From positions 7,378,001 through 7,442,000 of the forward strand of contig NZ_JADBEB010000001.1 of NCBI RefSeq assembly GCF_014874095.1: a stretch of DNA of 64,000 nucleotides. Direction: 5' to 3'. This stretch comes from Plantactinospora soyae. GTDB taxonomy: Bacteria; Actinomycetota; Actinomycetes; Mycobacteriales; Micromonosporaceae. Below, in pieces: positions 25,884 through 45,767 of the stretch. The translations under genes and the position numbers were made by a program. Within the stretch, counting starts at the first letter, position 1, and each line of letters begins with the position of its first letter. The notes under the pieces are model-generated. The model had not been told where the DNA came from and did not search any database. It worked only from the letters and a program-made list of their open reading frames with translations.

Positions 25884-26891
25884 TCAGGTCGCCGCTTGTA
25901 CGAACTTCGGCTCCAGCAGCCCGTCTAGGGACGGCTTGGCCGGGGCCAGTTCGGTCTTCACCAGGAACTCGGCGATCTGGTCGGCCTGGTGGTCCAGGTG
26001 GGTGGGGTCGGCACCGGGGGTGAACGCGGCGAGGTTCTGTTCCCGGGTGAAGATGGTGGTGCCGGCGTTGTACGTCTGGTAGTCGGCCTCGCTGACCCCG
26101 CCCCGGCGCGCCATGATCGTCACCGCCTCGCCCGGGTTCGCCGTGATCCACTTCAGGGTGTCGAACCAGGTCTGCACGACCTTCTGCACCTCGTCCGGAT
26201 GGTCGGAGACGAATTCGGTGTCGAAGGCGAGGTGATCGGGAATGGCACCGGGGAAGTCCTTCGACGTCGCGATGGCCCGGCTTCCGGAGCGTCCCAGCGC
26301 GGTGGTGGTGAACGGCGCGAACACCCCGACCGCGTCGACCTGGCCGGCCACGAACGCCGCTGCGGCGGCATCGGTGAGCAGCGGGGTCAGGGTGATGTCC
26401 CGTTCGGTCAGGCCCGCCTTCTCGAGGGCGAGCAGCAGCAGGTAGTGGTCGACCGTGCCCTGCTCGACCGCGACCTTCCTGCCCCGCAGGTCGGCGACGC
26501 TGTTGATGCCGGGCGCCGCGATGATCTGGTCGTTGCCGGTCGAGTTGTCGTTGACCAGGACGATCGTCTGTTTGGCCCCACCGCTGACCGAGGAGAGGGT
26601 GTCGTTCAGGGTCTGGCTGTTGGCGTCGAGGTTGCCGGTGCTCAGCGCCTGGAGGCTGTCGGTGTAGCTGTCGAAGTACGTCACCTCCACGGTGACGCCG
26701 TTCTCCTTGAACAGTCCCTTCTCCTGCGCGACCTGCCAGGGGAACCAGCCCGGCCAGGCACTGAAGCCGAGCCGTACCGTGGCGGGCTGGCCCGGACGGG
26801 CCCCGCCGTCCCCGCCGCAGGCCGCCGTGGCGGCCAGTACGACGACGCACGCCGCGACCGCCAGGAGTTCCGTCAGGTGCCGTCTTCTCAT
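25884..26891 (-). CDS. ABC importer substrate-binding lipoprotein (SsuA/NMT1-like), guanidine operon
   Basis: 335 residues. The signal peptide ends in a lipobox-like VLAATAAC, so the protein is lipid-anchored outside the membrane. The mature part begins VRLGFSAWPGWFPWQVAQEKGLF, typical of NMT1/SsuA-type binding proteins, with DLRGRKVAVEQGTVDHYLL as the second-lobe entry. The ATG overlaps the gdmH stop as ATGA. Given the riboswitch, guanidine or a guanidino compound is the expected ligand. Confidence 0.85.
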   Translation of the reverse strand: MRRRHLTELLAVAACVVVLAATAACGGDGGARPGQPATVRLGFSAWPGWFPWQVAQEKGLFKENGVTVEVTYFDSYTDSLQALSTGNLDANSQTLNDTLSSVSGGAKQTIVLVNDNSTGNDQIIAAPGINSVADLRGRKVAVEQGTVDHYLLLLALEKAGLTERDITLTPLLTDAAAAAFVAGQVDAVGVFAPFTTTALGRSGSRAIATSKDFPGAIPDHLAFDTEFVSDHPDEVQKVVQTWFDTLKWITANPGEAVTIMARRGGVSEADYQTYNAGTTIFTREQNLAAFTPGADPTHLDHQADQIAEFLVKTELAPAKPSLDGLLEPKFVQAAT

Positions 26892-28042
26892 GGCTTTCTC
26901 CCAGGCAGATGACCGGCGCGGACGAGGCACCCGAGGGTGTCGCAGATGACCCGGGTGGCGATCAGCGAGGTGATCTCCGCGTTGTCGTACGGCGGAGAGC
27001 ACTCCACCACCTCGATGCCGGCGAGCGGTCGTTCGGCGATCAGTTGGATGAACTTCAGGACCTCGCGCGGCAGGAAGCCGCCCGGTTCGGGCCAGCCCGT
27101 ACCGGGGACGAACGCGGCGTCGAGGCAGTCGACGTCGAAGGAAAGCCAGACCGCCTCGGCACCGTCCCAGGCGACCTCCAGGGCCTTCGCGGCGGCGGCC
27201 TCGATTCCCATCTCGACGCAGTCGGTGACCGTCATGATCGTGGTGCCGCGCTCCCGGCCGACCTTCACCCCGGGCCGGGGCGCCTGCCAGCCGCCGATGC
27301 CGATCTGGACCAGGTTCTTCGGCGGGACGTTGGGGATGTCCGTGGCGTGGAACCACGGCGTGGTGTGCATCCGCTCGTCGAGATCCGTCTCCTGGGTGTC
27401 GACGTGCCGGTCGAAGTGGATGATGCCGAGGTTTCCCGACAGGTGCTCGGCCACCCCGCGCACGGTGGGGTAGCCGATCGAGTGGTCGCCGCCGAGCACG
27501 ACCGGAAAGGCGCCCGAGGCGTAGACGTGGCCGACCGCCTTGGAGATCTGGTCGAAGGTCTTTTCGATGTTGGCCGGGATGGTGAAGATGTCACCGAGGT
27601 CGGCGATCGTGATCGATTCCCGCAGGTCGACGCCGAGTTCGAAGCTGTACGGCCCGTACAGCGCGGAGATCTTCCGGATACCCTGGGGGCCGAACCGGGT
27701 CCCCGGCCGGTACGTCGTACCGCCGTCGAAGGGGGCGCCGAGCACCGCGACGTCGTACTCGCCGCAGGTGGTGACGTCCTCGACGTAGGGCGCCTTGAGG
27801 AAGGTGTTGATTCCGGCGAAGTGCGGTAGCTCGCCGCGGGAGAACGTCGGGATCCGGCGATCCACGATGGAGTCCGCGCCGGGCAGTCCGAGTCGCAGTC
27901 CGCGTTCGACCTCCGCCTCCCATCTGGTGGTGGGAAGTTCCGCCTCCCGCTCCACCGCGTAGCGAGCCTCGGGGCCGTAATTGTCGTGCAGCGGCGGGGT
28001 CTGCCCGTCCGACTGACCGTGATGATGGTGCGCGAAGCCCAT
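26888..28042 (-). CDS. gdmH: Guanidine hydrolase (ureohydrolase family)
   Basis: 384 residues of the arginase/agmatinase fold. The metal-binding motifs are GGDHS at 184 to 188, DRHVD at 211 to 215 within HFDRHVDTQETDLDERMH, and SFDVDCLD at 301 to 308, followed by PGTGWPEPGG. The DRHVDTQ and GWPEPGG variants match, from memory, the cyanobacterial Ni-dependent guanidine hydrolase Sll1077 rather than agmatinase. That enzyme splits guanidine into urea and ammonia. A guanidine-I riboswitch in its leader makes the assignment strong. The start ATG 28042 has GGAGG six bases upstream. An N-terminal HHHH run is unusual. Nickel chaperone genes (hypA/hypB), found beside the cyanobacterial gene, are not in this window. 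Confidence 0.9.
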   Translation of the reverse strand: MGFAHHHHGQSDGQTPPLHDNYGPEARYAVEREAELPTTRWEAEVERGLRLGLPGADSIVDRRIPTFSRGELPHFAGINTFLKAPYVEDVTTCGEYDVAVLGAPFDGGTTYRPGTRFGPQGIRKISALYGPYSFELGVDLRESITIADLGDIFTIPANIEKTFDQISKAVGHVYASGAFPVVLGGDHSIGYPTVRGVAEHLSGNLGIIHFDRHVDTQETDLDERMHTTPWFHATDIPNVPPKNLVQIGIGGWQAPRPGVKVGRERGTTIMTVTDCVEMGIEAAAAKALEVAWDGAEAVWLSFDVDCLDAAFVPGTGWPEPGGFLPREVLKFIQLIAERPLAGIEVVECSPPYDNAEITSLIATRVICDTLGCLVRAGHLPGRKP

Positions 28043-28087
28043 GGGCACCTCCGGAAAGGTCGCCCGGCCGGGAACAGCCGGGTGTTG

Positions 28088-28205: not shown

Positions 28206-28310
28206 CAGTGGATGAGTCGTATCGAAACGTAGGGCGCCCGCGTTTCCCGCGTTTTGCCCGCCCGTTGCCGGCAGGTATCGGCCGCGTCTGCGGTCGCTCT
28301 CGCGCGCGAT

Positions 28311-28463
28311 GTTATTTAACACTCTGCCCGTTAAGTTATCAACCACCCTACCGAACCCGTGACAACCACTCCGGCCCCACTGACGACCAGAGTCCCCGCT
28401 CAACGCGGTCTCCATCGGGGCCCGGCGGGGTGGCTCTCGCGGCAACCGTGATGTTAAGTTAAC
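28311..28463. promoter_or_regulatory. GTTAA-type putative operators before the first kinase operon
   Basis: In the divergent spacer, AT-rich motifs stand out from the GC-rich background: GTTATTTAAC at 28311, GTTAAGTTATCAAC at 28330, and the perfect 11-bp palindrome GTTAAGTTAAC at 28453 to 28463, 47 bases before the kinase start. Similar GTTAAC motifs lie in front of the phosphodiesterase operon (35071 to 35096). The DeoR repressor encoded at 30769 is the likely ligand; this is inference. Confidence 0.5.
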
Positions 28464-28509
28464 GTCTACGCCTGTTCATTTGCTCTCGCCGTGGAGGCGG
28501 TAATCCTCG

Positions 28510-30009
28510 ATGCGAAAACACCAGCCGGCCGCCGGGCGACTCTGGGCGGGCGTCGACGTCGGCACCCAGAGCCTGCGGGTCCTGCTCGTCGACGGCGCCG
28601 GCACCGTCGCCGGGCACGGATCGCAGGCCCTGACCAGCCAGCGGACCGGCGACCGGCACGAACAGGACCCGACCGACTGGTGGTCCGCGCTCGGCGCGGC
28701 GTTCCGGCGGGCCCTGCGCGACGTCGAACCGACCCGGGTCGGCGCACTGGCGATCTGCGGCACCTCCGGCACCTTCCTGCTGGCCGGTCCGGACGGCGAG
28801 GCCCGGACCCCGGCCCTGATGTACGACGACTCCCGGGCCCAGCGTGAGGCCGAGGACGTCGCGAAAGCCGGCGCCGACGTCTGGGCCGCGCTCGGGTACG
28901 CCACCCAACCGTCCTGGGCCCTGCCCAAGCTGCTCTGGCTGCTCCGACACGGCCCGGCCGAGCTTCGCGCGGACCTTGACGCCGGCCGGGTCGCACTGCG
29001 GCACTGCGGCGACTACCTCGCCACCCGGTTGACCGGGTCCCCGGTGGCCACCGACTGGAGCACCGCGCTCAAGACGGGGTACGACCCCGACGGCGGGGGC
29101 TGGCCGACCGGCGTACTCGACAAGCTCGGGCTCCCCTCCGGCACGCTGCCCCGGGTGGTCCGGCCGGGAACCCGGATCGGCGCACTCGACCCGACCGGGG
29201 CCGCCCATACCGGGCTCCCCGTCGGGGTGCCCGTACGGGCCGGCATGACCGACGGCTGTGCCGCCCAGATCGCCGCCGGGGCGCTGGAGGCCGGAAGCTG
29301 GAACTCCGTCCTCGGCACCACGCTGGTCCTCAAGGGCGTCACCCCGGTCCGGCTGACCGATCCGGTCGGTGCGGTCTACTCACACCGGCACCCGGACGGC
29401 GGCTGGCTGCCGGGCGGGGCGTCGAACGTGGGGGCCGGCGCGCTGGAGGCGAGGTTTCCCGGCGTCGACCGGGCCGGAATGGACCGGGCCGCCGCCGGGT
29501 ACGAACCGGCCGGCGGGCTCGTCTATCCACTCCGCTCCCCCGGCGAGCGGTTCCCGTTCGTCCGGCCCGCCGCCGAGCCGTTCGAGGTGGGCACCTTCGC
29601 CGACGACGCGGACCGGTACGCCGCAGTGCTCCAGGGCGTCGCGTACGTGGAACGGCTCTGCTACGCCCACCTTCGCCGGCTCGGGGCCGACGTCACCGGC
29701 CCGCTCTCGCTGACCGGCGGGGCGACCCGCAGCCGGTACTGGTCCCAACTGCGCGCGGACGTACTCGGCCGGGAGGTGACCCTGCCGCGTACCGCCGAAC
29801 CGGCGTTCGGGATGGCCGTGCTGGCGGCGGCCGGCGACGACAACCTCACCGAGGCGGCCCGCCGGATGGTACGGGTGGCCCGGGTACTGGCGCCCCGGCC
29901 CGGCACCCGGGAACGGTTCGCCGAGCCGTACGCCCGGTTCGTCGACGCGCTCGCCGTGCGGGGACACGTCGACGAGGAGTTCGCCACCTACGCCAAGGAG
30001 CTGTCGTGA
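28510..30009 (+). CDS. FGGY-family carbohydrate kinase 1
   Basis: 499 residues with the two-domain FGGY fold: LWAGVDVGTQSLRVLLVDGAG at 11 to 31 (phosphate loop 1), the AICGTSGTFLLAG segment, WNSVLGTTLVLKGVT in the C-domain, and the adenosine-binding SLTGGATRSRYWSQLRADVLGREV. It should phosphorylate a sugar, ketose or polyol with ATP. The length and loops recall xylulokinase/AI-2-kinase-like members, but the substrate is open. It is the first gene of a tightly overlapping operon; the next start overlaps its stop as GTGA. GTTAA operators lie upstream. Confidence 0.85.
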   Translation: MRKHQPAAGRLWAGVDVGTQSLRVLLVDGAGTVAGHGSQALTSQRTGDRHEQDPTDWWSALGAAFRRALRDVEPTRVGALAICGTSGTFLLAGPDGEARTPALMYDDSRAQREAEDVAKAGADVWAALGYATQPSWALPKLLWLLRHGPAELRADLDAGRVALRHCGDYLATRLTGSPVATDWSTALKTGYDPDGGGWPTGVLDKLGLPSGTLPRVVRPGTRIGALDPTGAAHTGLPVGVPVRAGMTDGCAAQIAAGALEAGSWNSVLGTTLVLKGVTPVRLTDPVGAVYSHRHPDGGWLPGGASNVGAGALEARFPGVDRAGMDRAAAGYEPAGGLVYPLRSPGERFPFVRPAAEPFEVGTFADDADRYAAVLQGVAYVERLCYAHLRRLGADVTGPLSLTGGATRSRYWSQLRADVLGREVTLPRTAEPAFGMAVLAAAGDDNLTEAARRMVRVARVLAPRPGTRERFAEPYARFVDALAVRGHVDEEFATYAKELS

Positions 30010-30692
30010 CCAGTACGACGCTGGTGCTCGCCCGGCACGGCCGGACCGGTTGGCACCATCCGAACCGGTACGCCGGGCGCAGCGACGTACCGCTCGACAC
30101 CGTCGGCGAGCGGCAGGCCCAGCAGTTGGCCCGGTGGGCGGCACGGCAGGAGTTCACCGGCCTGGTCTGCTCCCCGTTGCGCCGGGCCCGGGACACGGCC
30201 GCCCCGACCGCGACGGCGACCGGCCTGTCCCCGCTGGTGGAGCCTCGGCTGCGGGAACTCGACTTCGGCATCGCCGAGGGCCGTACCCTGACCGACCTGC
30301 GCGCCACCGACCCCGAGCTGGTGGCCCGGTTCGAGGCCGATCCGGCGGCCGACCACTTCCCCGAGGGCGAACGGCCGGATCAGGCCGTGTCCCGGGCCCT
30401 CGAAGCGCTCACCGCGCTGGCCACCGCCGATCCCGGCGGACGGATTCTGGTGGTCGCGCACAACACGCTGATCCGGCTGGTGACGTGTGCGGTGCTGGGG
30501 GTGCCGCTGGCGGAGTACCGCCGCCGGCTGCCGCTGCTCGATCCGGTCGCGACCACCACCCTCCGGTTCCCGGTCCCGGCCGACCGTGCAGGGCTGCACG
30601 CCGAGCCGGTGGCGTTGCTGGCCTACAACGTGCCGTTGTGTCGAGGATGGGACGATCCCGACCACGACGACGCCGACCAGAGGAAAACATGA
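30006..30692 (+). CDS. Histidine phosphatase (phosphoglycerate-mutase-like)
   Basis: 228 residues. LVLARHGRTGWHHPNRYAGRSD carries the phosphorylated histidine in the RHG motif, and VVAHNTLIRLVTCAVLG carries the second catalytic histidine; LRELDFGIAEG is the expected acidic block. It belongs to the branch that removes phosphate from small molecules. The GTG overlaps the kinase stop. Having a phosphatase directly behind a sugar kinase suggests that it acts on a different phosphate, for example one released from an imported phosphodiester. The tail is polar, and its last codons carry the ribosome site AGAGGAAA for the mini-ORF that follows. Confidence 0.85.
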   Translation: MTSTTLVLARHGRTGWHHPNRYAGRSDVPLDTVGERQAQQLARWAARQEFTGLVCSPLRRARDTAAPTATATGLSPLVEPRLRELDFGIAEGRTLTDLRATDPELVARFEADPAADHFPEGERPDQAVSRALEALTALATADPGGRILVVAHNTLIRLVTCAVLGVPLAEYRRRLPLLDPVATTTLRFPVPADRAGLHAEPVALLAYNVPLCRGWDDPDHDDADQRKT

Positions 30693-30772
30693 GCGAGCGC
30701 AGCGAGCGAATCAGCCAACTCAGGGCGAACGTGCCTCATGACGGCACGCAGCGAAGCGGAGTGCCGGCATGA
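30689..30772 (+). repeat. MSERSERI-type mini-ORF repeat, copy 1
   Basis: An 84-base element reads as a 27-codon ORF opening MSERSERI. Its ATG overlaps the stop of the phosphatase gene and its TGA overlaps the ATG of the DeoR gene, both as ATGA. AGAGGAAA precedes it, and its last bases supply GGAG as ribosome site for the next gene. An inner hairpin GTGCC/GGCAC is present. A related copy is at 43918. I know this family as a dispersed Micromonosporaceae repeat; peptide function is doubtful. Confidence 0.7.
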
Positions 30773-31557
30773 GCGCTACTGACTCTCCTGAGCGCAGCCG
30801 GCCCGCCCAACGCCAGGTGGAGATCGCCGAACACGTGCTCCAGCACGGTTCGGTCTCCGCCACCGAGCTGGCCGAGATGTTCCACGTCAGCCTGATGACC
30901 ATCCACCGCGACCTGGACGAGTTGGAGCGTCAGGGCGTGGTCCGCAAGTTCCGGGGCGGCGTCAGCGCCCAACCGTCGAGTGTCTTCGAGTCGAACGTGT
31001 CGTTCCGGCTGCGCGCCGCCCGGGAGGAGAAGCTGGCCCTGGCCCGCCAGGCGCGGGCCCTGATCGAACCGGGCATGGCGGTGATGCTCGACGACTCCAC
31101 CACCACCCTGGAGGTGGCCCGGCTGCTGGAGGACGACGCCGGCCCGCTCACCGTGATCACGAACTTCCTGGAGACGATCAAGCTGCTCTCCGGGGTACGC
31201 GGCGTACGGCTGCTGGCGCTCGGCGGCGAGTACTACCCGACCCACGACTCGTTCCTCGGAGTGCCGTGCGTGGAGGCGATCGAGGCGCTGCGGGTCGACC
31301 TGCTGTTCGCCTCCACCTCGGCGGTCTCCGGCGGGTACGCCTACCACCAGGAACAGGAGATCGTCCTGGTGAAACGGGCGATGATCCGCGCGGCACAGCG
31401 CAGCGTGCTGATGGTGGACCACACCAAGCTCGGCCGGGCCGCGCTGCACCGGCTGGCACCGCTGCGTGAATTCGATCTGGTGATCACCGACGCCAAGGCC
31501 CCGGAGGAGACGTTGTCGGAGATGCGTGAACATGGTGTCCGGTACGACATCGCGTGA
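30769..31557 (+). CDS. DeoR/GlpR-family transcriptional repressor
   Basis: 262 residues: an N-terminal DeoR helix-turn-helix with SVSATELAEMFHVSLMTIHRDL at about 28 to 49 and the wing GVVRKFRGGV, then the DeoR C-terminal sugar-phosphate sensor (EEKLALARQARALIEPGMAVML, TVITNF, VDLLFASTSAVSGGY, RSVLMVDHTKLGR). Such repressors sense phosphorylated sugars. Sitting inside the operon, it probably controls both this unit and the downstream phosphodiesterase-ABC unit through the GTTAA motifs. It overlaps the start of kinase 2. Confidence 0.9.
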   Translation: MSATDSPERSRPAQRQVEIAEHVLQHGSVSATELAEMFHVSLMTIHRDLDELERQGVVRKFRGGVSAQPSSVFESNVSFRLRAAREEKLALARQARALIEPGMAVMLDDSTTTLEVARLLEDDAGPLTVITNFLETIKLLSGVRGVRLLALGGEYYPTHDSFLGVPCVEAIEALRVDLLFASTSAVSGGYAYHQEQEIVLVKRAMIRAAQRSVLMVDHTKLGRAALHRLAPLREFDLVITDAKAPEETLSEMREHGVRYDIA

Positions 31558-33010
31558 ACCCGTGGTGCTCGGCGTCGACGTCGGAACCACGGTCACCAAG
31601 GCGGTCGCGTTCGGCCCGGACGGCGCGGCACTGGCCCGCGCGGCCCGGCCCACGGTGCTCGACCGGGCCGGCCCCGGCCGGTACGAGCAGGACGCCGACC
31701 AGGTGCTGGAGTCCGTGCTGGCGGTGCTCGGCGAACTGCGGGAGCGGGTGCCCCGGCCGGTCACCGCGCTCGGGGTCACCGGACAGGGCGACGGGCTGTG
31801 GCTGGTCGACGCCGACGGGCGCCCCGTCCGGCCGGCGATCTCCTGGTTGGACGCCCGGTCCACGCCGATCCTGGAGCAGTGGGCGGCGGACGGGCTGCTG
31901 GAGGTGGCGTACCGACGTACCGGCAACTACCCGTTCCCCGGCGCCTCCGGACCGCTGCTGGCCTGGCTCGACGCGCACGAACCGGCCGTACTGGACCGGG
32001 CCGCCACCGCCGCGTACTGCAAGGACATGGTCGTGCAGCGGCTCACCGGGCTGCGGGCCACGGACCCGTCCGACGCCTCGGCCCCGTTCCTCGACCCCCG
32101 CACCCGCCGGTACGACGAGGACCTGATCGCGGCCTGCGGCCTGGCGCACCGCCGGCACCTGCTGGCGCCGGTGCACGACGCCCCGCACGCCACGCTGGAC
32201 GCGGCAGCGGCCGAGCGGACCGGCCTGCCGGTCGGCCTGCCGGTCATCGCCGCGCCCTACGACCTGCCCGCCTCGGCCTGGGGTGCGGGGGTCCGGTCGG
32301 TCGGCGCCGGACTGCTCATCGTCGGCACCACCCTCGCCTGCCAGGTACTCCGGGACGAGGTCGACACGACCGGCGAGCCGTGCGGCCTGACGCTGAACAC
32401 CTGGCAACCCGACCGGTGGCTACGGGCCCTGCCCGCGATGGTCGGCACGGCCGCACTGGACTGGGTGCTCCGGCTCGTCGGTGCGGCCGTCTCCGACCTG
32501 CCGGACCTGCTGGCCCGGGGCCGGGCCGACGGGCTGACCGTGCTGCCGTTCTTCGCCGAGGCCGGTGAGCGGGCGCCGTTCGTGGCGCCCCGGGCCAGGG
32601 CCCGGATGGACGGCCTGCACCTGGGCACCGAGCCGGCGGATCTGGTCCGGGCGACCTGTGAGGCGATCGCGTACAGCGCCCGGCACTGCCTGACCGCCGC
32701 GGAGCTGACCGGCGAACTCACCGCCTGCGGCGGCGGGGTCGGGTCGGCACGCTGGGCGCAGATCTTCGCGGACGCGCTGGGCCGACCGGTGCGGGTGCTG
32801 GCCGGTGAGGAGATCGGGGCGCGCGGCGCGGCGCTGGCGGCGCTGTCGGTGGCCGGTGGCGCCGACCCGGACGCGTCCGGCTGGTACCCGCCGGGCCAGC
32901 GGTACGAGCCGGACGGGCCGGCACGGGACCGGTACGAGGCCGGTTACGCCCGCTATCTGGAGCACATCACGCAGGCCCGTCCGGCCTGGAATCGAAAGGT
33001 AGACGCTTGA
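31532..33010 (+). CDS. FGGY-family carbohydrate kinase 2
   Basis: About 492 residues: VVLGVDVGTTVTKAVAFGPDG at the start, ALGVTGQGDGLWLVDADGRPVRPAISWLDAR, the long C-domain segment LLIVGTTLACQV and LTACGGGVGSARWAQIFADALGRPV. It is only distantly similar to kinase 1 and looks closer to the xylulose/erythritol/ribulokinase-like branch. The start overlaps the end of the DeoR gene: ATG 31532 or GTG 31526, both behind GGAG. The stop overlaps the TTG of the dehydrogenase gene. Two kinases in one operon suggests that two products of one substrate are both phosphorylated. Confidence 0.85.
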   Translation: MVSGTTSREPVVLGVDVGTTVTKAVAFGPDGAALARAARPTVLDRAGPGRYEQDADQVLESVLAVLGELRERVPRPVTALGVTGQGDGLWLVDADGRPVRPAISWLDARSTPILEQWAADGLLEVAYRRTGNYPFPGASGPLLAWLDAHEPAVLDRAATAAYCKDMVVQRLTGLRATDPSDASAPFLDPRTRRYDEDLIAACGLAHRRHLLAPVHDAPHATLDAAAAERTGLPVGLPVIAAPYDLPASAWGAGVRSVGAGLLIVGTTLACQVLRDEVDTTGEPCGLTLNTWQPDRWLRALPAMVGTAALDWVLRLVGAAVSDLPDLLARGRADGLTVLPFFAEAGERAPFVAPRARARMDGLHLGTEPADLVRATCEAIAYSARHCLTAAELTGELTACGGGVGSARWAQIFADALGRPVRVLAGEEIGARGAALAALSVAGGADPDASGWYPPGQRYEPDGPARDRYEAGYARYLEHITQARPAWNRKVDA

Positions 33011-34011
33011 CAACCACCCACGTCCTGATCGCGGGCGACCATTTCGTGACGCCCGACCTGGTCACCGACGCGCTACGGGCGCGGATCGGTCCGGTGTTCA
33101 CCGCCCGCACGCTGACGCTGCCCTGGCCGCACGTCCCGTTCGGCCGGATCGCCGAGGTGGACGAGGCGTCCGGGGACGAGGACGAGCTGATCGCGGCGCT
33201 GGCCGGAGTGGAGGTGGCGGTGACCCAGATGGGCCCGTTCACCGCCCGGGTGTTGGGCGCGGCGGACGCGTTGCGGCTGGTCGTGGTGTGCCGGGGCGGC
33301 CCCGTCAACGTCAACCTGGCGGCCGCGGCGCAGGCGGGGGTGCGGGTCCGGACCACGCCGGGGCGCAACGCGGTCGCCGCCGCCGAGCACGCCGTGGCGC
33401 TGATCCTGGCCACCCTGCGGCAGATCCCGGACCGGCACGCCGGTGTCCGGGACGGTGCCTGGCGCAGCGACCTGTACGCGCTGGACGAGGTCGGTTCCGA
33501 ACTGGCCGGCAGCACGGTCGGGCTGGTCGGCTACGGCGCGATCGGCCGGCGGGTCGGTCGGATCCTGCGGGCCTTCGACGCGGAGGTGCTGGTCCACGAC
33601 CCGTACGCCGATCCGGCCACGCTGGACGGCGCGAGCCCGGTCGGGCTGGCCGAGCTGCTGGAGCGGTCGGCGGTGTTGAGCCTGCACGCCCGGATGACCC
33701 CGGAGACCGCCGGCATGATCGGGGTGAAGGAGCTGGCCCGGCTGCCCCGTGGTGCCGTACTGGTGAACACCGCGCGCGGCGGCCTGCTCGACTACGACGC
33801 CGTGGTGGACGCGCTGGAGTCGGGGCAGTTGGGCGGGGCCGGGTTCGACGTCTTCGACACCGAGCCGCTGCCGGCGGGCTCGCGGCTGCGTACCGCGCCC
33901 CGGGTGGTGCTCACCCCGCATCTGGCCGGCGCCACCCGGCAGACCGCCGAGCGGGCCGCCGCCCAGGCCGCCGACGCCGTCGCCGAGTACCTCGCCGAGC
34001 GGGACCGGTGA
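33007..34011 (+). CDS. D-isomer-specific 2-hydroxyacid dehydrogenase
   Basis: 334 residues with the NAD-binding motif VGLVGYGAIGRRVG (GxGxxG at 175 to 180) and the catalytic set: arginine in VVCRGGPVNVN near residue 96 or the later LVNTARGG, glutamate in FDVFDTEPL, and histidine in LTPHLAGAT. It interconverts a 2-hydroxy and 2-keto acid, as in phosphoglycerate or erythronate-phosphate dehydrogenases. The TTG start overlaps the kinase stop as TTGA. It probably acts on a sugar-acid or phospho-sugar-acid intermediate; this is inference. Confidence 0.87.
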   Translation: MTTTHVLIAGDHFVTPDLVTDALRARIGPVFTARTLTLPWPHVPFGRIAEVDEASGDEDELIAALAGVEVAVTQMGPFTARVLGAADALRLVVVCRGGPVNVNLAAAAQAGVRVRTTPGRNAVAAAEHAVALILATLRQIPDRHAGVRDGAWRSDLYALDEVGSELAGSTVGLVGYGAIGRRVGRILRAFDAEVLVHDPYADPATLDGASPVGLAELLERSAVLSLHARMTPETAGMIGVKELARLPRGAVLVNTARGGLLDYDAVVDALESGQLGGAGFDVFDTEPLPAGSRLRTAPRVVLTPHLAGATRQTAERAAAQAADAVAEYLAERDR

Positions 34012-34892
34012 CCGACCCCGAGCCGGTGACCGATCGCGAGCCGGTGACCGGCCCCGAGCCGGTGACCGATCCTGGATCGACGACCGGGGCGCAGGTGCGG
34101 ACCGAAGACCTCGTGGCGCTGCTGCCGGTCGCCACGGCGGCGGTGGACCTCGCCGCCGACCTGATCCGGACCGGCCGGCCCGGTGCGTTGACCGCCAAGG
34201 GCGAGCGGGACATGGCCTCGGAGGTGGACTTCGCGGTCGAGCGGGCGGTCCGGGAGTACCTGCGCCGACGTACCCCGCAGATCGGGTTCGTGGGCGAGGA
34301 GGAGGGTTCGCTGGATCCCGACGCCGAACTGGTCTGGGTGCTCGACCCGGTGGACGGGACGGTCAACTTCGTCCACGGCCTGCCACTGGTGGCGGTGTCG
34401 CTGGGGCTGCTCCGCGCCGGCCGGCCGGTGCTCGGCGTGATCGACCTGCCGCTGCTCGGCCAGCGTTACTGGGCGGTCGAGGGTGCGGGCGCGTACGCCG
34501 ACGGGAAGCGGATCTCGGCGAACCGGCCGACGGGGCTGGACGAGGCGCTGGTGGCGATCGGCGACTACGCCGTGGGCAGCGGCGCGGCCGGGCGTAACCG
34601 CGAGCGGCTGGCGATGACCGCCGCGCTGGTGTCCCGGGCCCAGCGGGTCCGGATGCTCGGCACCGCCGCGGTGGACCTCGCCTGGCTGGCCTCGGGCCGG
34701 CTGGACGCGCTGGTGATGTTCTCGAACAACCCGTGGGACGTGACCGCCGGGGTGGTGCTGGCCCGAGAGGCGGGGGCCCGGACGGTGGATCGGGACGGCA
34801 GCGAACACACCCTCGCCGCGACGGCCACCATCGCCGCCGCGTCACCCGTGCTGGACGAGATCCTGGCCCTGGTACGCGGTCTCGCGGACTGA
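34008..34892 (+). CDS. Inositol-monophosphatase-family phosphatase
   Basis: 294 residues. Metal-binding motifs are GEEEG at 96 to 100, DPVDGTVNF at 113 to 121 and WDVTAGVVLAREAG near the C-terminus, so it is an intact Mg-dependent sugar or polyol phosphatase. The N-terminal 22 residues are a short repeat (EPVTD, EPVTG, EPVTD) without parallel in the family. The GTG overlaps the dehydrogenase stop as GTGA. Phosphatase AccG of agrocinopine catabolism belongs to the same family, and here too a glycerophosphodiesterase gene follows. Confidence 0.87.
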   Translation: MTDPEPVTDREPVTGPEPVTDPGSTTGAQVRTEDLVALLPVATAAVDLAADLIRTGRPGALTAKGERDMASEVDFAVERAVREYLRRRTPQIGFVGEEEGSLDPDAELVWVLDPVDGTVNFVHGLPLVAVSLGLLRAGRPVLGVIDLPLLGQRYWAVEGAGAYADGKRISANRPTGLDEALVAIGDYAVGSGAAGRNRERLAMTAALVSRAQRVRMLGTAAVDLAWLASGRLDALVMFSNNPWDVTAGVVLAREAGARTVDRDGSEHTLAATATIAAASPVLDEILALVRGLAD

Positions 34893-34910
34893 ATCTTCCT
34901 CGGCACGACT

Positions 34911-35096
34911 CTTAACGGCCGATGGCCGGTTCTTAACATCTTCCTAGGTCACCGGTGGCCGGTGCGGGCCCTGCGCTGTCGCCCGTCGCACAGCGCACAC
35001 GACCGCACCCGCTCCGCTTTTGCCTGCTCCGCAGCCTCGATTCCACACTTGCCCCGCCGGTTCCGATCGTGTTAACTACCGACGGTATGTGTTAAC
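34911..35096. promoter_or_regulatory. GTTAAC/CTTAAC direct-repeat operators before the phosphodiesterase operon
   Basis: The 274-base gap before 35167 contains two CTTAAC (34911 and 34932, 21 bases apart) and two GTTAAC (35071 and 35091, 20 bases apart), each pair spaced by two helical turns. A further GTTAAG lies near 35125. Together with the palindrome at 28453 they form a candidate regulon of the DeoR repressor. Confidence 0.5.
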
Positions 35097-35166
35097 AACG
35101 TCCGTGATAGCAACGTTCTACGGCGTTAAGAGCGGTGGGCTACCGCCGGTCACCCGAGGAGGCTCG

Positions 35167-35871
35167 ATGTTCCTGACGATCGCGCATCGGGGCGATCCGC
35201 TCGCCCACCGCGAGAACACCATGCCGGCGTTCCAGTCGGCGGTCGACAAGGGCGCGAACACCCTGGAGTTCGATCTGCGGCTGACCCGGGACGGCCGGAT
35301 CGCGTTGCTGCACGACGCCCGGCTGGACCGGTTGTGGGACGTACCGGCGGCGATCGCCGACCTGACCCTCGCGCAGGTACGGACGGCCGGCACCGACGGT
35401 CACCAGGTGCCCACCCTGGACGAACTGCTCGTCGCCTTCCCCCGGACGACGTTCCTGGTCGACCTGAAGACCGACGACGTGGTCGAGCCCGCGGTCCGGG
35501 AACTGCGCCGGCACGGCGACGCCTTCGACCGGGCCATCTTCGTGGCGGCCCGCAGCGGCGGCCGGGAGGCACTGGTCCGGCTGCGCGCGGCCGAGCCGGA
35601 CGCGCTGATCGGGCTGGACTGGACCGAACCCGCACCGCCGCCGCAGGACCTGCTGGACGCACTGCGCCCGCAGTACTTCGGTCCGCGCTGGCGGGTCGCC
35701 GACGCGTGCGGGGTACCGGCGATGCGGGAGCGCGGCTACCAGGTCTGGGTCGGCCCGCTCGTCGCCGAGGCGGACCTGGCCGCCGCGTACGCGTACGGAG
35801 TGGACGGCATCGTCAGCGACGACGTCGACGCCCTGCTGCGGCTCGCCGCCCCCGTTCCGGCCGGTGAGTGA
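35167..35871 (+). CDS. Glycerophosphodiester phosphodiesterase family protein
   Basis: 234 residues of the GDPD TIM barrel: HRG at 7 to 9 with H7, E34 and D36 in TLEFDLRLT, and H49 in ALLHDARLDR, matching the catalytic and metal-binding residues of GlpQ/UgpQ. There is no signal peptide, so it acts inside the cell on an imported phosphodiester, like UgpQ. GAGGAGG precedes the ATG. It leads an operon with two permeases and a binding protein, and the next start lies within its last codons. AccF, which splits the sugar phosphodiester agrocinopine, belongs to this family. Confidence 0.88.
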   Translation: MFLTIAHRGDPLAHRENTMPAFQSAVDKGANTLEFDLRLTRDGRIALLHDARLDRLWDVPAAIADLTLAQVRTAGTDGHQVPTLDELLVAFPRTTFLVDLKTDDVVEPAVRELRRHGDAFDRAIFVAARSGGREALVRLRAAEPDALIGLDWTEPAPPPQDLLDALRPQYFGPRWRVADACGVPAMRERGYQVWVGPLVAEADLAAAYAYGVDGIVSDDVDALLRLAAPVPAGE

Positions 35872-36826
35872 CCCGACGGTAGCCGGGCGGGGCAGGCCGG
35901 TGCCGACCGCCGGCGACACCGCCCGACGATCCGTGGCCCGGACCCGACGCGGTCGGCGCCTGCGGGAGTACGCCCTCTTCCTGGCCTTCGTCGCGCCCAA
36001 CTTCCTGCTGATCGGGGTCTTCTCGTACTGGCCGGTGGTCTACAACGCCTACCTGAGCCTGACCGAGTGGGACATGATCGCCCCGGTCAAACGGTTCGTC
36101 GGGCTGGACAACTACGTCGACCTGTTCACCGGCAACGAGTTCGTCGACGTGCTCGGTACCACGGCGTACTTCATGGTCGGGGTGGTCGGCGGCAGCCTGG
36201 TCCTGGGTCTGGCGGTGGCGGTGCTGCTGAACCAGCGGCTGCGCGGCCGGGGGCTGGTCCGGACCATGGTCTTCGCGCCGCACGTGCTCTCCGGCGCCGC
36301 GATCGGACTGGCCTGGCTGTTCATCTTCGACCCGAACTACGGGCTGTCCCGGTTCCTGTTCGAACTCGTCGGCGCCACCTCGCCGGCCTGGCTCACCGAC
36401 TCCGACTGGGCCCTGCCGGCGATCATGATCGTCTACCTGTGGAAGAACGTCGGCTTCTGCGCGATCGTCTACCTGGCCGGGTTGCAGAACCTGCCCCGGG
36501 ACCTCTACGAGTCGGCGGCGCTGGACGGCGCCGGCGCGTGGCGGATCTTCCGCCGGATCACCCTGCCACTGCTCTCTCCGGTGACGTTCTTCCTGGTGGT
36601 GACGACGATCATCTCGTCGTTCCAGGCCTTCGACGTGATCGCGGTGATGACCGACGGCGGGCCGGGCGGAGCGACCACCATCCTCTCCTGGTACGTCTAC
36701 GACAAGGGCTTCATCGCCTTCCAGGCCGGTCCGGCCGCCGCGGGTGCGGTGGTGATGTTCGCGATCCTGCTCGCGGTCACCCTGCTGCAGACCCGCTATC
36801 TCGAGCGAAAGGTGCACTACCGGTGA
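35864..36826 (+). CDS. ABC sugar-type permease (UgpA-like)
   Basis: 320 residues: a 40-residue basic leader, six membrane helices and the EAA-type coupling loop LYESAALDGAGAWRIFRRITLP. It is the first permease of a carbohydrate-uptake class 1 importer. The GTG overlaps the phosphodiesterase gene by eight bases and the stop overlaps the next GTG. Its company (GDPD enzyme) mirrors the E. coli ugpBAECQ operon. Confidence 0.88.
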   Translation: MSDPTVAGRGRPVPTAGDTARRSVARTRRGRRLREYALFLAFVAPNFLLIGVFSYWPVVYNAYLSLTEWDMIAPVKRFVGLDNYVDLFTGNEFVDVLGTTAYFMVGVVGGSLVLGLAVAVLLNQRLRGRGLVRTMVFAPHVLSGAAIGLAWLFIFDPNYGLSRFLFELVGATSPAWLTDSDWALPAIMIVYLWKNVGFCAIVYLAGLQNLPRDLYESAALDGAGAWRIFRRITLPLLSPVTFFLVVTTIISSFQAFDVIAVMTDGGPGGATTILSWYVYDKGFIAFQAGPAAAGAVVMFAILLAVTLLQTRYLERKVHYR

Positions 36827-37647
36827 CCACACGGATGCGCCGGTTCGGCCTCTACGCACTGCTCGCCCTGGTCGGAGTGACCATGGTGGGGCCGCTGTAC
36901 TGGCTGTTCACCTCGTCGCTGAAGCAGTCCGGCGACATCTACACCTTCCCGCCCGTCTGGTGGCCCGGTGACCTGCGCTGGGGCAACTACGCGGAGGCGT
37001 GGCGGGCGGCGCCGTTCGGCCAGTTCTACCTCAACTCCCTGATCACCACCGGTTCCGGGGCGCTGCTGGAGGTGGCGAACGCGGTGCTCACCGCGTACGC
37101 CTTCGTGTTCCTGCGGTTTCCGGCCAAGCGGGTGCTGTTCGCCGCGCTGCTCGGCGCGCTGATGGTGCCCGGACACGTCACCCTGCTCGCCAACTACCTG
37201 ACCGTGGCCGACCTGGGCTGGATCAACACCTACCAGGGCATCGTCATCCCGGGCGCGGCCTCGGCGTTCGGCGCGTTCCTGCTGCGCCAGCACATGCTGA
37301 CCATCCCCATCGAGATCATCGAGGCGGCCCGGGCGGACGGCGCCGGGCACCTGCGCATCCTGTTCCGGGTCGTGCTGCCGCTGTCCCGCCCGATGCTGAT
37401 CACGGTCGCGATCGTGTCGCTGGTCAGCAAGTGGAACGACTTCATCTGGCCGTTGATCGTCACGAACACCGAGACCATGCGGACCCTGCCGGTGGGGCTG
37501 CTGATGCTCAAGGACGCCGACGGCTACGTCAACTGGGGCTCCGTGATGGCCGCGACCGTCTTCGTCGTACTTCCGGTCCTCGCCGTCTTCTTCGTCGCCC
37601 AGCGGCAGATCGTCGCCGGCCTCACCCAGGGTGCCGTCAAGGGCTGA
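36823..37647 (+). CDS. ABC sugar-type permease (UgpE-like)
   Basis: 274 residues, six helices, with coupling loop IIEAARADGAGHLRILFRVVLP and the late SKWNDFIWPLIV motif typical of MalG/UgpE-type permeases. The GTG overlaps the stop of the first permease as GTGA. Partner of the preceding permease. Confidence 0.88.
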   Translation: MTTRMRRFGLYALLALVGVTMVGPLYWLFTSSLKQSGDIYTFPPVWWPGDLRWGNYAEAWRAAPFGQFYLNSLITTGSGALLEVANAVLTAYAFVFLRFPAKRVLFAALLGALMVPGHVTLLANYLTVADLGWINTYQGIVIPGAASAFGAFLLRQHMLTIPIEIIEAARADGAGHLRILFRVVLPLSRPMLITVAIVSLVSKWNDFIWPLIVTNTETMRTLPVGLLMLKDADGYVNWGSVMAATVFVVLPVLAVFFVAQRQIVAGLTQGAVKG

Positions 37648-37684
37648 CGTCCGACCTGCTCCTCACTCCCGGAGGGAACCAACC

Positions 37685-39028
37685 ATGTCCACACCCCTTT
37701 CCCGGCGCCGGTTGCTCGGCCTCGCCGGTGGCGCCGCGCTCGCGTTGACGCCGCTCGGCTGTGGCGGTGGCGGCGGAAGCGGCGGCAGCCAGTTCAGCCA
37801 GCCGAAGGGCGACGTGCCCGGCCAGTACGCCAAGCGGCAGCGGGTGGTGGTCTGGTACCCGTACAGCGGAGTGCCGGCCGACGCCTTCAACCGGCTGGTC
37901 GGCAAGTTCAACGAGTCCCAGCAGGACGTCTACCTGGAGGCGCAGTTCCAGGGCACCTACGACGAGGTGTCCCAGAAGCTCGCCGCCGGCCTCCAGGCCC
38001 GGCAGATCCCGGAGTTGTGCATCTTCTCCGAGGTGACCTGGCACCGGTTCCATCTCAACCAGACGCTGGAGCCGATGACCGGCTACTTCGACAACGGCTT
38101 CTCCCCAGCCGAGTACGTCGACTCGCTGATCGCCGAGGGCACCGTCCGGAACGAGGTGTGGTGGGTGCCGTTCGGCCGCAGTACGCCGCTGTTCTACTAC
38201 AACCGGGACATGTTCGCGAAGGCCGGCCTGCCGGATCGGGGCCCGAAGACCTGGGACGAGTTGCGGGAGTGGGCACCGGCGCTGCAGAAGGTGAGCGTCG
38301 GCGGCCGGGCGCCCCGGCTGCACGCGTACCCGCGGGTGGACGGGGACTGGATGTTCCAGGGCGCGGTGTGGCAGTGGGGCGGGAACTACTCCAAGGGAAT
38401 GGAGGTGGCCATCGACACCGGCGGCGCGGTCGAGGCCGGTGAGTGGCAGCGGCGGCTGATCCACCAGGACAAGCTCGCCTACATGACCGAGAGCCCCCGG
38501 GTCGACTTCACCAACGGGCTGGTCGGCACGCTCCAGGACTCCACCGGCGTGATGACGACGCTGACCAAGGAGGCCAAGTTCGCGTTCGGCGCCGCCTTCC
38601 TGCCCGAGCAGAAGGCGTTCGGCTGCCCGACCGGCGGCGGTGGGCTGGCGATGCTGGCCGGCCCGCCGAAGGAGCGCAAGGAGGCCGCGTTCGAGTTCAT
38701 CCGGTTCGCCGCCAGGCCGGAGAACGTGGCGCAGTGGTCGGTCGACACCGGCTACCTGCCGTCCACCAAGGCCGCGCAGCAGACCCCGGAGTTGCAGAAG
38801 CTCTTCACCGAGCGGCCCGGCTACAAGGTCGCGGTGGACCAGTTGCCGAAGACCCAGGCGCAGGACCAGGTCCGGCTGCTGGTGCCGAACGCGAACAAGG
38901 CCATCTACGGCGGCCTACAGAAGATCTACGCCGACAACCAGCCGGCCCAGCAGGTCTTCTCGGCGGTGGCGGAGGAACTGCGCAAGAACGCCGAGAGCGT
39001 CAAGGACGCGGTCGCCAAGTACAGCTGA
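37685..39028 (+). CDS. ABC sugar-type substrate-binding lipoprotein (UgpB-like)
   Basis: 447 residues. The N-terminus combines twin arginines (LSRRRLLGLAGG) with a lipobox-like TPLGC, so it is a lipoprotein, possibly Tat-exported. The mature domain shows VVVWYPYSGVPADAFNRLV, FNESQQDVYLEAQFQGTYDE and LCIFSEVTWHRF, similar to UgpB-like extracellular solute-binding proteins. GGAGGGA precedes the ATG. No ATPase gene follows; actinomycetes often use one shared MsiK-type ATPase for such importers. Ligand inferred: a glycerophosphodiester or sugar phosphodiester. Confidence 0.87.
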   Translation: MSTPLSRRRLLGLAGGAALALTPLGCGGGGGSGGSQFSQPKGDVPGQYAKRQRVVVWYPYSGVPADAFNRLVGKFNESQQDVYLEAQFQGTYDEVSQKLAAGLQARQIPELCIFSEVTWHRFHLNQTLEPMTGYFDNGFSPAEYVDSLIAEGTVRNEVWWVPFGRSTPLFYYNRDMFAKAGLPDRGPKTWDELREWAPALQKVSVGGRAPRLHAYPRVDGDWMFQGAVWQWGGNYSKGMEVAIDTGGAVEAGEWQRRLIHQDKLAYMTESPRVDFTNGLVGTLQDSTGVMTTLTKEAKFAFGAAFLPEQKAFGCPTGGGGLAMLAGPPKERKEAAFEFIRFAARPENVAQWSVDTGYLPSTKAAQQTPELQKLFTERPGYKVAVDQLPKTQAQDQVRLLVPNANKAIYGGLQKIYADNQPAQQVFSAVAEELRKNAESVKDAVAKYS

Positions 39029-39121: not shown

Positions 39122-42100
39122 TCAGCCGCGGCGGAACCGGTACGTGCCGGAGCCGACCGTGAAGACCGCCGACCCGTCGTCGGCGCGGTGGCTGGCGCGT
39201 ACCCCGTCGGCGTCGGACGCGGGCGTTCCGCCCTCGGTGACGTCCGCCGGGTCGGCGTCCGGCACCCACACCTCGGCCGTGGTGTTCGGCGGCACCGTCA
39301 CGTCGAGAATGAACGCCCCCGCCTCGTCCCGCCAGGCCACGGCGGCCCGGCCGTGCACCGTCGCCAACTCGGCCTCGGCGGAGGACAGACCCCCGCCCGG
39401 TCGGGGTCGGATCCGGATCGTCCGGTATCCCGGCGCGGTCGGGGCGAGTCCGGCGACGGTGCGGTAGAGCCAGTCGCCGACCGCGCCGTACGCGTAGTGG
39501 TTGAACGAGGTCATGTGCGGGTTCTGGAAGCCACGGGAGTCGCTCCACGAGTCCCAGCGCTCCCAGATGGTCGTGGCGTCGCCGTGCACCACCGGATACA
39601 GCCAGGACGGGTACCCCGACTGGGTCAACAGCCGGTACGCGACGTCCACCCGACCGCCCTCGGTCAGCGCGTCGAGTAGCCACGGAGTGCCGAGGAACCC
39701 GGTGGTCAGGTGGTCGTGCCGGGCGGCCACCTCGGCGGCGAGCCGGTCCACCGCCGCCGGCCGATCGGCAGCGGGCAGCAGGTCGGCGTGCAGCGCCAGC
39801 ACGTACGCGGTCTGGGTGCCGGACGAGACCCGGCCGCCGCCACCGACGTACCGGGCCTGGAACTGCGCGCGCAGCCGGTCGGCGAGGGCGTGCCAGTCCC
39901 CCGCCCTCGGGTCGGCGACGCTCTCGGCGAGCCGGGCGGCGAGTCGGGCCGTGTACGCGAAGTACGCGGTGTTGACCAGTTCCTTCGGGGTCGGGGTGAC
40001 GGCGAGCCAGTCGGCGTACCCGCCGTCGGGCTGGTCCCCGCCGCCACGCCGGTCGAGGTACCGCAGCCAGCCGTCCATCGCGTCCAGGCTCTCGGTCACG
40101 GCGCGCCGGTCGGCGTACGCGGTCAGCAGCCGTTCCGGCACGATCGCCACGGCGTCGCCCCAGCCGCCGCTGCCGGCCCACCGGGTCGGGTTGTCGACCT
40201 GGGCGCCGGTCATGACGTCGGGTGCCACGTGTGCGATCGCGCCGTCCGGGCGTTGGGCGTCGCGGACGTCCTGCAGCCATTTGCGCAGGAACGAGCGGAC
40301 GTCGTAGTTGAACGCGGCGGTGGCGGCGAACACCTGGGCGTCCCCGGTCCAGCCCAACCGCTCGTCGCGCTGCGGGCAGTCGGTGGGCACGGTGAGGAAG
40401 TTGCCGCGCTGGCTCCACACGATGTTCGCCTGGAGCCGGTTCAACGGCTCCGACGAACAGCCGAACCTGCCGGTGGCCGGCATGTCGGCGTACGCGACCA
40501 CGGCGGTGACGTCGGCGCCGTCCAGTGCCTCCGACAGGCCGCTGACCTCGCAGTAGCGGAAGCCGTGCACGGTGAACCGGGGCTCGTACTCCTCGCCGTC
40601 GGGCTCGCCGCGCAGCACGTACTCGTCGGTGGCTCGGGCGGTCCGCAGGGCCGTCAGGTACAGCTCGCCGTCCGGGTCGAGCACCTCGGCGTGCCGCAGC
40701 ATGATGCGTTGCCCTGCCCGGCCGCGCAGCCGCAGCCGCAGCCAGCCGGCGATGTTCTGGCCGAAGTCGACGACGACGGTGCCCGGCCGGAGTTCGGTGA
40801 CGGTCCGCGCCGGCAACTCGTGCAGCGCGCGGATCGGCTCGGCGATCTGGGCCTGGGGCGCGCCGGCCGGTCCGGGTACCGGCACCGCCGCCGGCCAGTC
40901 CGTGTCGTCGAAGTCGGGCTCCCGCCAGCCGGCCGGCTCGCGGCGGGCATCGTAGACCTCGCCGTTCTGCAGGTCGGCGTAGCGCAGGCCGCCCTCGCCG
41001 GTCCGCCACCGCCCGTCGGTGCCGAGCACGGTGTGCGTACCGTCGTCGAGGTCCAGGTGCAGTTCGGCGCGGAGCGCGCGGACGTCGCCGTAGTGTCCGG
41101 CGCCGAGAAAGCCGACCTGGCCGGCGTACCACCCGTCGGCGAGGGTCCCGGCGAGCGCGTTGCGTCCCGGCCGGAGCAGGGCGGTGACGTCGTAACACTG
41201 GTACGGCACCCGTAGCTGGTAGTCGGTCCAGCCGGGAGCGAGCCGGTGGTCGCCGACCGGCGCCCCGTTGATCGTCAGCTCGTACAGCCCGGCGGCGGTG
41301 GCGTAGAGCCGGGCCCGCCGCACCGGCGCCGACACCTCGAAGGCACGCCGCAGGTACGGGCTCGGTCGGTAGGTTGCCGGTTCCCGGCCCCACGGCGGGT
41401 TGCCGTGCGGTCCGAGAGCCACCGCCTTGGCCCAACCGGAGTCGTCGTGGTCGGGCCGGGCCCAGTCCGGCGTCGCCTCGCCGGACCCGGTCCACCCGCC
41501 CGGACCGGCCAGCTCGCCCGGACCAGCAAGCTCGCCCGGACCAGCAAGCTCGCCCGGACCGATCTGTTCGGGCCGGATCGGGGCGGCGGCGGCCCGCCAC
41601 CGGTCGTCGGCGACCAGCAGCACCGGGTGCAGGTCGGCCAGGCTCACCGTCAGCCGAGCGACCAGGCCGCCGGGCAGCGCGCCGGCCACCGCGCGCAGCG
41701 CGAGCACGTTGCGGCCGACCCGGACCGCCGGACGCGGGTCGGTGCCGTGCACCGGCACGCCGTTGAGCCAGGCGGTGATCTCGGCGGCGCCGCCGGTGGT
41801 CAGCTGGGCCCCGGTCACCGCGCGACCGGGCGGCACGGTGAACTCGGCCCGGAACAGCGCCTCCGCCGGCGCGGGCGTTCCGGCCGCCCAGATCCGTTCG
41901 ATGTTCTCGAACGGCGCCCGGGTGTCCAGGTCGATCCGGACCGGTACGGCGGCCTCGGCGGCCGAGGTGATCCAGTCGGCCGTCCACTCGCCGGGCCGCA
42001 TCAGTCCACTTTCCCAGGTCGCCGGTTGGCTCCAGTCGGATGGTTCGACGCGCTCGTCGATCACCCGGACCCGCCAGTGGTAACGGGTCCGGGGGCGCGG

Positions 42101-42337: not shown

Positions 42338-42360
42338 GTCGACTCCTGTGAAGATGACAG

Positions 42361-42570: not shown

Positions 42571-42607
42571 TCGGCTCTCGGGGCCGCCCGCAGCACAGGA
42601 GGAACAG

Positions 42608-45763: not shown

Positions 45764-45767
45764 CCCG

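Follow-up and report, generated by a model that had tools for sequence, protein, structure and literature searches.

The window analysed here, a 64,000-base stretch of the genome of the actinomycete Plantactinospora soyae, contains two adjacent operons that are probably best read as a single regulon under the control of DeoR, serving growth on a glycerophosphodiester, a compound of the form glycerol-phosphate-X. The system is real and co-conserved, and joins known logic and known parts to a kinase-dehydrogenase core in a new combination, for which a putative mechanism is set out below. Our analysis was computational, combining open reading frames, Pfam and NCBIfam profile scans, and the comparison of loci across genomes; the host genome is a single contig of 9.7 Mb. 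An initial annotation of the window had described two adjacent same-strand operons, and all ten genes were indeed recovered as open frames on the plus strand with the Pfam families it had claimed. Operon 1 (28510–34892) encodes an FGGY kinase (FGGY1), a histidine phosphatase, a DeoR regulator, a second FGGY kinase (FGGY2), a 2-hydroxyacid dehydrogenase and an inositol-monophosphatase-family enzyme (IMPase). Operon 2 (35167–39028) encodes a glycerophosphodiester phosphodiesterase (GDPD) followed by UgpA, UgpE and UgpB. Within both operons, overlaps of 4 to 26 bases are found at six of the eight gene junctions. The features are the following.

28300..28509, no strand: operon 1 promoter, with GTTAA/TTAAC half-sites clustered at 28316, 28330, 28453 and 28458/9; predicted DeoR operator
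28510..30009, plus: FGGY1, FGGY-family sugar kinase, XylB/ribulokinase-like (Pfam FGGY_N/C)
30006..30692, plus: histidine phosphatase (branch 1; His_Phos_1, 1.3e-49), overlapping FGGY1 by 4 bp
30769..31557, plus: DeoR-family regulator, predicted regulon repressor (DeoRC and HTH_DeoR)
31532..33010, plus: FGGY2, second FGGY-family kinase (FGGY_N/C), starting at ATG 31532 or GTG 31535
33007..34011, plus: D-2-hydroxyacid dehydrogenase, PGDH/GhrB-like (2-Hacid_dh_C, 4.4e-54), TTG start
34008..34892, plus: inositol-monophosphatase-family phosphatase, the IMPase (Inositol_P, 1.1e-55), GTG start
34893..35166, no strand: operon 2 promoter, with half-sites at 34912, 34933, 35071/2, 35091/2 and 35125; predicted DeoR operator
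35167..35871, plus: GDPD-family phosphodiesterase (GDPD, 2.9e-27), no signal peptide by eye
35864..36826, plus: UgpA-like permease (BPD_transp_1)
36823..37647, plus: UgpE-like permease (BPD_transp_1)
37685..39028, plus: UgpB-like binding protein (SBP_bac_8, 2.7e-38)

Inspection of the translations by eye found the catalytic motifs of the GDPD intact (HRG..EN..EFD..HD, in agreement with the pattern HR..EN..E.D..HD), together with the RHG..E..H motif of the histidine phosphatase, the DPVDGT and WDVTAG motifs of the IMPase and a catalytic Asp in both FGGY1 and FGGY2. The R/E/H triad of the dehydrogenase is also intact, and is invariant across the aligned relatives. Pfam found no ATP-binding subunit (UgpC) among the ten genes.

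The two operons are better described as one regulon of two operons, apparently co-regulated by the half-sites that they have in common: 12 of the 18 GTTAA/TTAAC matches in the window fall in the two promoters, which together make up 484 of its 64,000 bases. A half-site lies upstream of FGGY1 in all 16 distinct loci whose DeoR is at least 70% identical to that of the window (counting one locus per duplicate pair, and leaving out L106 at 68.9%), and no exact GTTAA was found in the FGGY1 promoter of loci in which the best DeoR match is below 60% or missing, those of Asanoa included. The half-site therefore tracks the regulator, as its presence follows DeoR identity across loci.

The strongest test of co-regulation, which is independent of the window, comes from UgpAEB operons that lie apart from the core, on other contigs or hundreds of kilobases away, in five (G012, G021, G050, G070 and G086) of the seven genomes that encode an intact UgpB. 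We retrieved 11 of the 12 such stretches, at 17–20 kb each, omitting the G070 copy near 108,954. In ten of the 11, the sole GTTAA of the whole stretch lies upstream of the ugpA match and no more than 300 bp from it, whereas control intergenic regions from the same stretches and from the core loci contain GTTAA in 5 of 134 cases. GTTAA is also the most enriched 5-mer of the ugpA promoter set (16 observed versus 0.97 expected). Besides GTTAA, a GATGAGCGAT-like motif precedes ugpA in L154, L155, L156 and L157.

The gene set is conserved well beyond the window. Among 95 distinct FGGY1 loci (80 named and 27 further loci with duplicates merged, the window itself left out), FGGY2 and the dehydrogenase adjoin FGGY1 in 72, defined by tblastn matches above 45% identity for the dehydrogenase and above 34% for FGGY2 in the same stretch; 67 of these 72 core loci also have the histidine phosphatase. 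The remaining 23 FGGY1 groups, several of them on short contigs, lacked at least one of these two matches and were set aside. Because close relatives of the dehydrogenase (match at 1e-60) occur in only 28 of the 150 Micromonosporaceae genomes compared while the FGGY1 neighbourhood is kept in 72 of 95 loci, the grouping exceeds chance. Core loci were found in Streptomyces, Actinomadura, Nonomuraea, Kribbella and Phytoactinopolyspora, among others. The initial annotation had treated the kinases and dehydrogenase as additions to a set resembling the acc genes for agrocinopine catabolism in Agrobacterium. That order has to be turned round: the kinases, dehydrogenase and histidine phosphatase are the conserved core, and what varies is the GDPD, the IMPase and the importer. 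The IMPase type lies beside the core in at least eight loci, clustering having missed the copies of L045/L066 (tblastn 33%), and in L136 (55% identity) it does so without a GDPD. A group of core variants around Asanoa (L034–L038, L061, L064 and L068) has no DeoR match and no GTTAA before FGGY1, and dihydroxyacetone-kinase-like genes were seen by eye near some of them.

Several lines of evidence tie this core to the importer and to the GDPD. Intact UgpB at least 43% identical to that of the window was found in seven of the 150 genomes, excluding a decayed piece in G065, and every one of the seven belongs to the set of 28 that also has the dehydrogenase (p 4e-6, relatedness ignored). All ten genes are present and collinear in L041; core, UgpAEB and GDPD form one run in Kribbella catacumbae (L129); and Streptomyces sp. 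NBC_01727 (L149) has the same genes minus the IMPase within 17 kb, in several runs. A GDPD lies beside the core in at least 18 of the 72 distinct loci, against about 1.6% expected from eight GDPD matches in 9.7 Mb; this count is a lower bound from a profile seeded with the GDPDs of these loci, and does not include the weak matches in L125 and L128. Within 15 kb of the dehydrogenase, a GDPD was found in 7 of 28 genomes versus 0.53 expected (p 1.4e-6, which like all p-values over the 150- and 28-genome sets ignores kinship among genomes, or p 0.016 when counted as three independent layouts). In operons apart from the core, the GDPD adjoins UgpB in 8 of 11.

The core-associated GDPDs are of four types, mostly 26–45% alike between types: that of the window and L041; that of Dactylosporangium, Hamadaea and Phytoactinopolyspora alkaliphila; that of Kribbella, Phytoactinopolyspora endophytica, G021 and NBC_01727; and a longer type, found in Actinomadura kijaniata and eight Streptomyces, whose start looks signal-like by eye. 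Two of the longer GDPDs, those of L092 and L084, escaped a simple motif check and were assigned by Pfam and by a custom profile, respectively. It would be difficult to account for the recruitment of such unlike GDPDs if the core did not meet a substrate derived from a phosphodiester.

The binding protein points in the same direction. Its best solved relative is the M. tuberculosis UgpB (245 bits). According to a passage of a 2025 study (PMC12718374), the phosphate ligands of UgpB-type proteins are two Tyr and two Ser, the glycerol hydroxyls are bound by Gly, Glu/Asp and Arg, and a Trp pair clamps the small glycerol-1-phosphate and glycerol-3-phosphate. The pocket of the window UgpB comprises Y92, E116, S166, G220, W222, S286, G318, Y357 and R397, with residue numbers counted by hand on the alignment with M. 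tuberculosis UgpB. All seven ligands are kept, Y92, S166, S286, Y357, G318, E116 and R397 corresponding to Y78, S153, S272, Y345, G306, D102 and R385; of the Trp clamp, W222 is kept, and G220 replaces Leu205. The Tyr and Ser residues and Leu205/Trp208 carry their M. tuberculosis numbers, and for Gly306, Asp102 and Arg385 these are given in the passage of PMC12718374, which otherwise numbers a marine protein. Five relatives of the window type agree on the pocket; three of them carry Asp in place of Glu, and L104 has a gap at position 220. In the Dactylosporangium-type UgpB (L043) the Arg is not clearly kept. The glycine together with the kept ligands would suit a glycerophosphodiester whose far side is bulky, and the predicted pocket argues against a plain-sugar ligand. 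In one Ugp-GDPD operon of G050 (L153:8923-11529) there is a tandem pair of UgpB genes, each 52% identical to that of the window.

The initial annotation had proposed a phosphodiester catabolic system, and its proposal gains support from the co-conservation, common half-sites and UgpB pocket described above; the two operons are co-conserved and have a half-site in common, so its concern that they might never be co-conserved falls away. From the gene identities, half-sites, co-conservation and pocket residues, we infer a model in which all of the reactions, the direction in which the dehydrogenase runs, the reading of the half-sites by DeoR, the inducer, the borrowed ATPase and X itself are predictions. 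UgpB and UgpAE would import the intact glycerophospho-X, powered by an ATPase that is encoded at another place in the genome. The GDPD would then cleave it, most simply to sn-glycerol-3-phosphate and X, or else to glycerol and X-phosphate; the IMPase-type enzyme would next take off a phosphate, leaving X free. The FGGY kinases would phosphorylate X, and the 2-hydroxyacid dehydrogenase would oxidize or reduce it on the way to central metabolism, while the histidine phosphatase, which is closely coupled to FGGY1, may dephosphorylate an intermediate or limit its build-up. A phosphorylated intermediate would free DeoR from the GTTAA(C) operators at both promoters.

Our prediction for X is a small polyol, a ketose or a sugar acid. 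FGGY1 has SePSK as its best Protein Data Bank sequence match, an enzyme that phosphorylates D-ribulose according to a passage of PMC4880283. Assignment of FGGY1 as a D-ribulose kinase on this basis was left as a lead, the residues in common being generic; the likeness is one of fold and catalytic Asp. The AlphaFold model of FGGY1 has a mean predicted local distance difference test (pLDDT) score of 91, and its nearest folds, among the best 50 rows, are xylulose and glycerol kinases at only 18–29% identity, so that the fold search gives no help with specificity. The candidate assignments as xylulokinase (XylB, TIGR01312; 177 bits for FGGY1 and 208 for FGGY2, cut-off 380), Lsr/AI-2 kinase (LsrK equivalog; 93 and 86 of 528 bits), glycerol kinase and gluconokinase all fell under cut-off. 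A distant rhizobial relative on pSymB of S. meliloti (L146) encodes in one stretch proteins similar to FGGY2 (34%), the dehydrogenase (43%), FGGY1 (34%) and DeoR (45%). Unlike the window, it adds a glycerol-3-phosphate dehydrogenase (GlpD equivalog), two class II aldolases, an isomerase and a triosephosphate isomerase, and no GDPD is listed there. The products expected from this gene set would be glycerol phosphate together with a ketose phosphate, by analogy with a locus only 34–45% alike. Our literature searches found no paper title describing the gene set or the kinase-dehydrogenase core.

A number of observations weigh against a single glycerophosphodiester regulon. Most concern the half-sites: where DeoR identity is 60–69%, exact GTTAA precedes FGGY1 in only 10 of 24 listed loci, L129 of Kribbella being one without it; the FGGY1 promoter set ranks GTTAA third, after ATATG and TAACA; the ugpA promoter of L160 has no GTTAA site, and that of L149 has no exact one although its FGGY1 promoter does; and a SorC-type regulator adjoins ugpA in L154 (by Pfam) and in L156 and L157 (by eye). 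Across the genome, half-sites in pairs occur no more often than the same pattern read backwards. A wider regulon in G000 was considered and rejected: 4 of 8 and 6 of 12 listed paired-half-site rows lay at the locus, but reversed patterns were equally frequent, and no related genes were seen by eye in five other G000 regions with half-site pairs. Pairs alone are unspecific, and the argument for a regulon therefore draws on promoter position. Other points concern the parts. The AlphaFold model of UgpB was poor (pLDDT 41) and was not used, so that the pocket is read from the alignment; FGGY1 and FGGY2 reach no NCBIfam cut-off; and a single Streptomyces layout supplies 8 of the 18 loci with a GDPD. 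A decayed UgpB (G065:C1:368180-368569), 75% identical and with two in-frame stops, lies in a genome without the dehydrogenase at 1e-60. The dehydrogenase is likewise found at 1e-60 in none of six other genomes of the window's own genus; the system is therefore patchy, and possibly acquired. Lastly, the examined stretch lacks a GDPD in 54 of the 72 core loci; the importer is of the Peripla_BP_4 type in 23 of the 72, and UgpB of the window type occurs in only four. The core alone thus does not imply a phosphodiester, and evidently also handles material arriving by other routes.

The nearest competitor is a narrower form of the glycerophosphodiester reading, in which a fragment of the teichoic acid type serves as substrate: in the relatives, a TagC-like propeller that is secreted would bind or cut glycerol-phosphate glycopolymers, a glycerophospho-polyol or -glycoside would enter by UgpBAE, and the core would burn the polyol or sugar. 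We regard this as a tentative possibility that falls short of probable. Nine distinct loci (L041, L042/L062, L060, L052, L149, L154, L155, L156 and L157) encode a protein of one TagC-like family as a neighbour of the core or of its Ugp-GDPD operons. The Pfam family PF21311, a phage receptor-binding platform propeller for which B. subtilis was the sole matching control genome, scores above cut-off in five of them (L041, L052, L060, L149 and G094, which is L042) and just over it in L156. The copy of NBC_01727 is annotated ‘teichoic acid biosynthesis protein C’, and three of the ten PF21311 matches across the 28 dehydrogenase-bearing genomes are less than 10 kb away from the core. In 6 of 72 loci the core adjoins a PHO4-type phosphate transporter cluster (confirmed by Pfam in two). 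Together, the TagC-like neighbours and the transporter favour, at the level of gene neighbourhood, polymers of the teichoic acid type as the source of the diester. Against this, assignments in the group L154–L157 are weak, with L154 under the Pfam cut-off, L157 without a Pfam match, L155 assigned by a custom profile, and identities to the others of about 25–28% where compared. We know of no catalytic role for TagC-like proteins, which also counts against the idea. Because the window genome has no PF21311 match, the link to TagC is a lead and not a result. Among the substrates listed by the initial annotation, the teichoic-acid fragment has thus gained some ground, through relatives and not through the window genome, and an opine-like diester has gained none. 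Our best guess for the source is glycerol-phosphate glycopolymers akin to teichoic acids, or else glycolipids that have been deacylated, in preference to an opine.

It is unlikely that the system is an ordinary scavenger of deacylated phospholipids (glycerophosphocholine, -ethanolamine, -inositol or -glycerol), with kinases that are co-regulated by coincidence and act on a sugar derived from glycerol or inositol. The closeness of UgpB to its M. tuberculosis counterpart favours this explanation, that protein being described as a binder of glycerophosphocholine or glycerophosphodiesters in a passage of PMC12718374 and in the titles of published work; so does the response of ugp and glpQ to phosphate limitation in C. 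glutamicum, described in a section of PMC7866108. The Ugp systems of E. coli (ugpBAECQ), C. glutamicum (ugp and glpQ) and M. tuberculosis (UgpAEBC) resemble the window in combining a UgpA/UgpE/UgpB importer with a GDPD, and in the pocket residues for glycerol phosphate. The window cluster differs in having no UgpC, in equivalog scores well below cut-off (171 of 335 bits for UgpA, 162 of 297 for UgpE and 110 of 411 for UgpB), and in adding two FGGY kinases, a hydroxyacid dehydrogenase and two phosphatases. Its regulation also looks different. The core consensus of the PHO box is GTTCAYC, which is absent as an exact match from both promoters (28300-28509 and 34893-35166), where clustered DeoR-associated half-sites are found instead. 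Choline, ethanolamine and glycerol-3-phosphate would need neither two sugar kinases nor a hydroxyacid dehydrogenase.

Less likely again is a core that degrades a plain monosaccharide or sugar acid bound by UgpB, with the GDPD and IMPase hitch-hiking or acting on lipids. The many core loci that lack a GDPD or use the Peripla_BP_4-type importer would be explained, as would the occurrence of FGGY1 without the rest of the core in metagenome-assembled genomes of Thermoleophilia and Acidobacteria. However, such a core would not account for the four types of GDPD and the IMPase recruited to it, the proximity of GDPD to UgpB in operons elsewhere in the genome, or the kept phosphate ligands of UgpB.

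The agrocinopine comparison of the initial annotation holds for logic, not kinship; the parts resemble Ugp. In the acc system of Agrobacterium, a whole phosphodiester is imported and met by a phosphodiesterase, a phosphatase and a sugar-phosphate-responsive repressor, and AccF frees the sugar phosphate that is the effector of AccR (PMC4526662). The window matches this at family level only, with its GDPD-family and IMPase-family enzymes and repressor; a close relationship to Acc found no support, as the kinases, dehydrogenase and histidine phosphatase are additional, the variable modules differ and the system is spread over soil actinomycetes. AccA is a family-5 binding protein. The importer of the window is SBP_bac_8/SBP_bac_1 only, which bears out the difference in class that the initial annotation had noted. 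A family-5 importer does adjoin the core variant L034 of the Asanoa group; even so, an actinobacterial opine-phosphodiester system related to Acc, sharing the enzyme classes named above, is very improbable given these differences. The xanthosan system of Xanthomonas (XanT-XanP) is likewise a dedicated nutrition module for a sugar phosphodiester, but it uses a TonB-dependent transporter and a 2H phosphoesterase, and none of the ten window genes belongs to the same families.

The genes flanking the system include an arginase/agmatinase-family gene divergent from FGGY1 (26888-28048, minus strand) and, at 39122-49982, a GH78 alpha-L-rhamnosidase (minus strand) with a carbohydrate ABC importer and a 1404-aa protein (plus strand). 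The latter is weakly like GH106 (20.7 bits, below the 29-bit cut-off); seven of the 72 loci encode proteins of its cluster close to the FGGY core, and the member in L102 is above the GH106 cut-off.

A section of a 2021 review (PMC7866108) presents Streptomyces as having no ugp clusters and no import of whole glycerophosphodiesters, and leaves the fate of glycerol-3-phosphate open. Our work ties a ugp-GDPD cluster to a carbon-catabolic core by half-sites and co-occurrence in several actinomycete lineages, and one Streptomyces plasmid holds the same kinds of genes together. It provides a concrete gene set and a predicted operator for finding the substrate, and a handle on FGGY kinases of unassigned specificity. 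More speculatively, and with a probability well below even, actinomycetes may own a dedicated DeoR-controlled pathway that feeds on glycerol-phosphate glycopolymers of the teichoic acid type, either those of other bacteria or, by recycling, those of the actinomycetes themselves. In this version, a secreted TagC-like propeller would handle the polymer, UgpBAE would import glycerophospho-X pieces, the GDPD and IMPase would free X, the kinase pair and 2-hydroxyacid dehydrogenase would burn it, and a Pit/DUF47 pair would deal with surplus phosphate in some species. If true, TagC-like proteins would gain a role in teichoic acid breakdown, and the regulon would offer a testable link between soil actinomycetes and the turnover of wall polymers.

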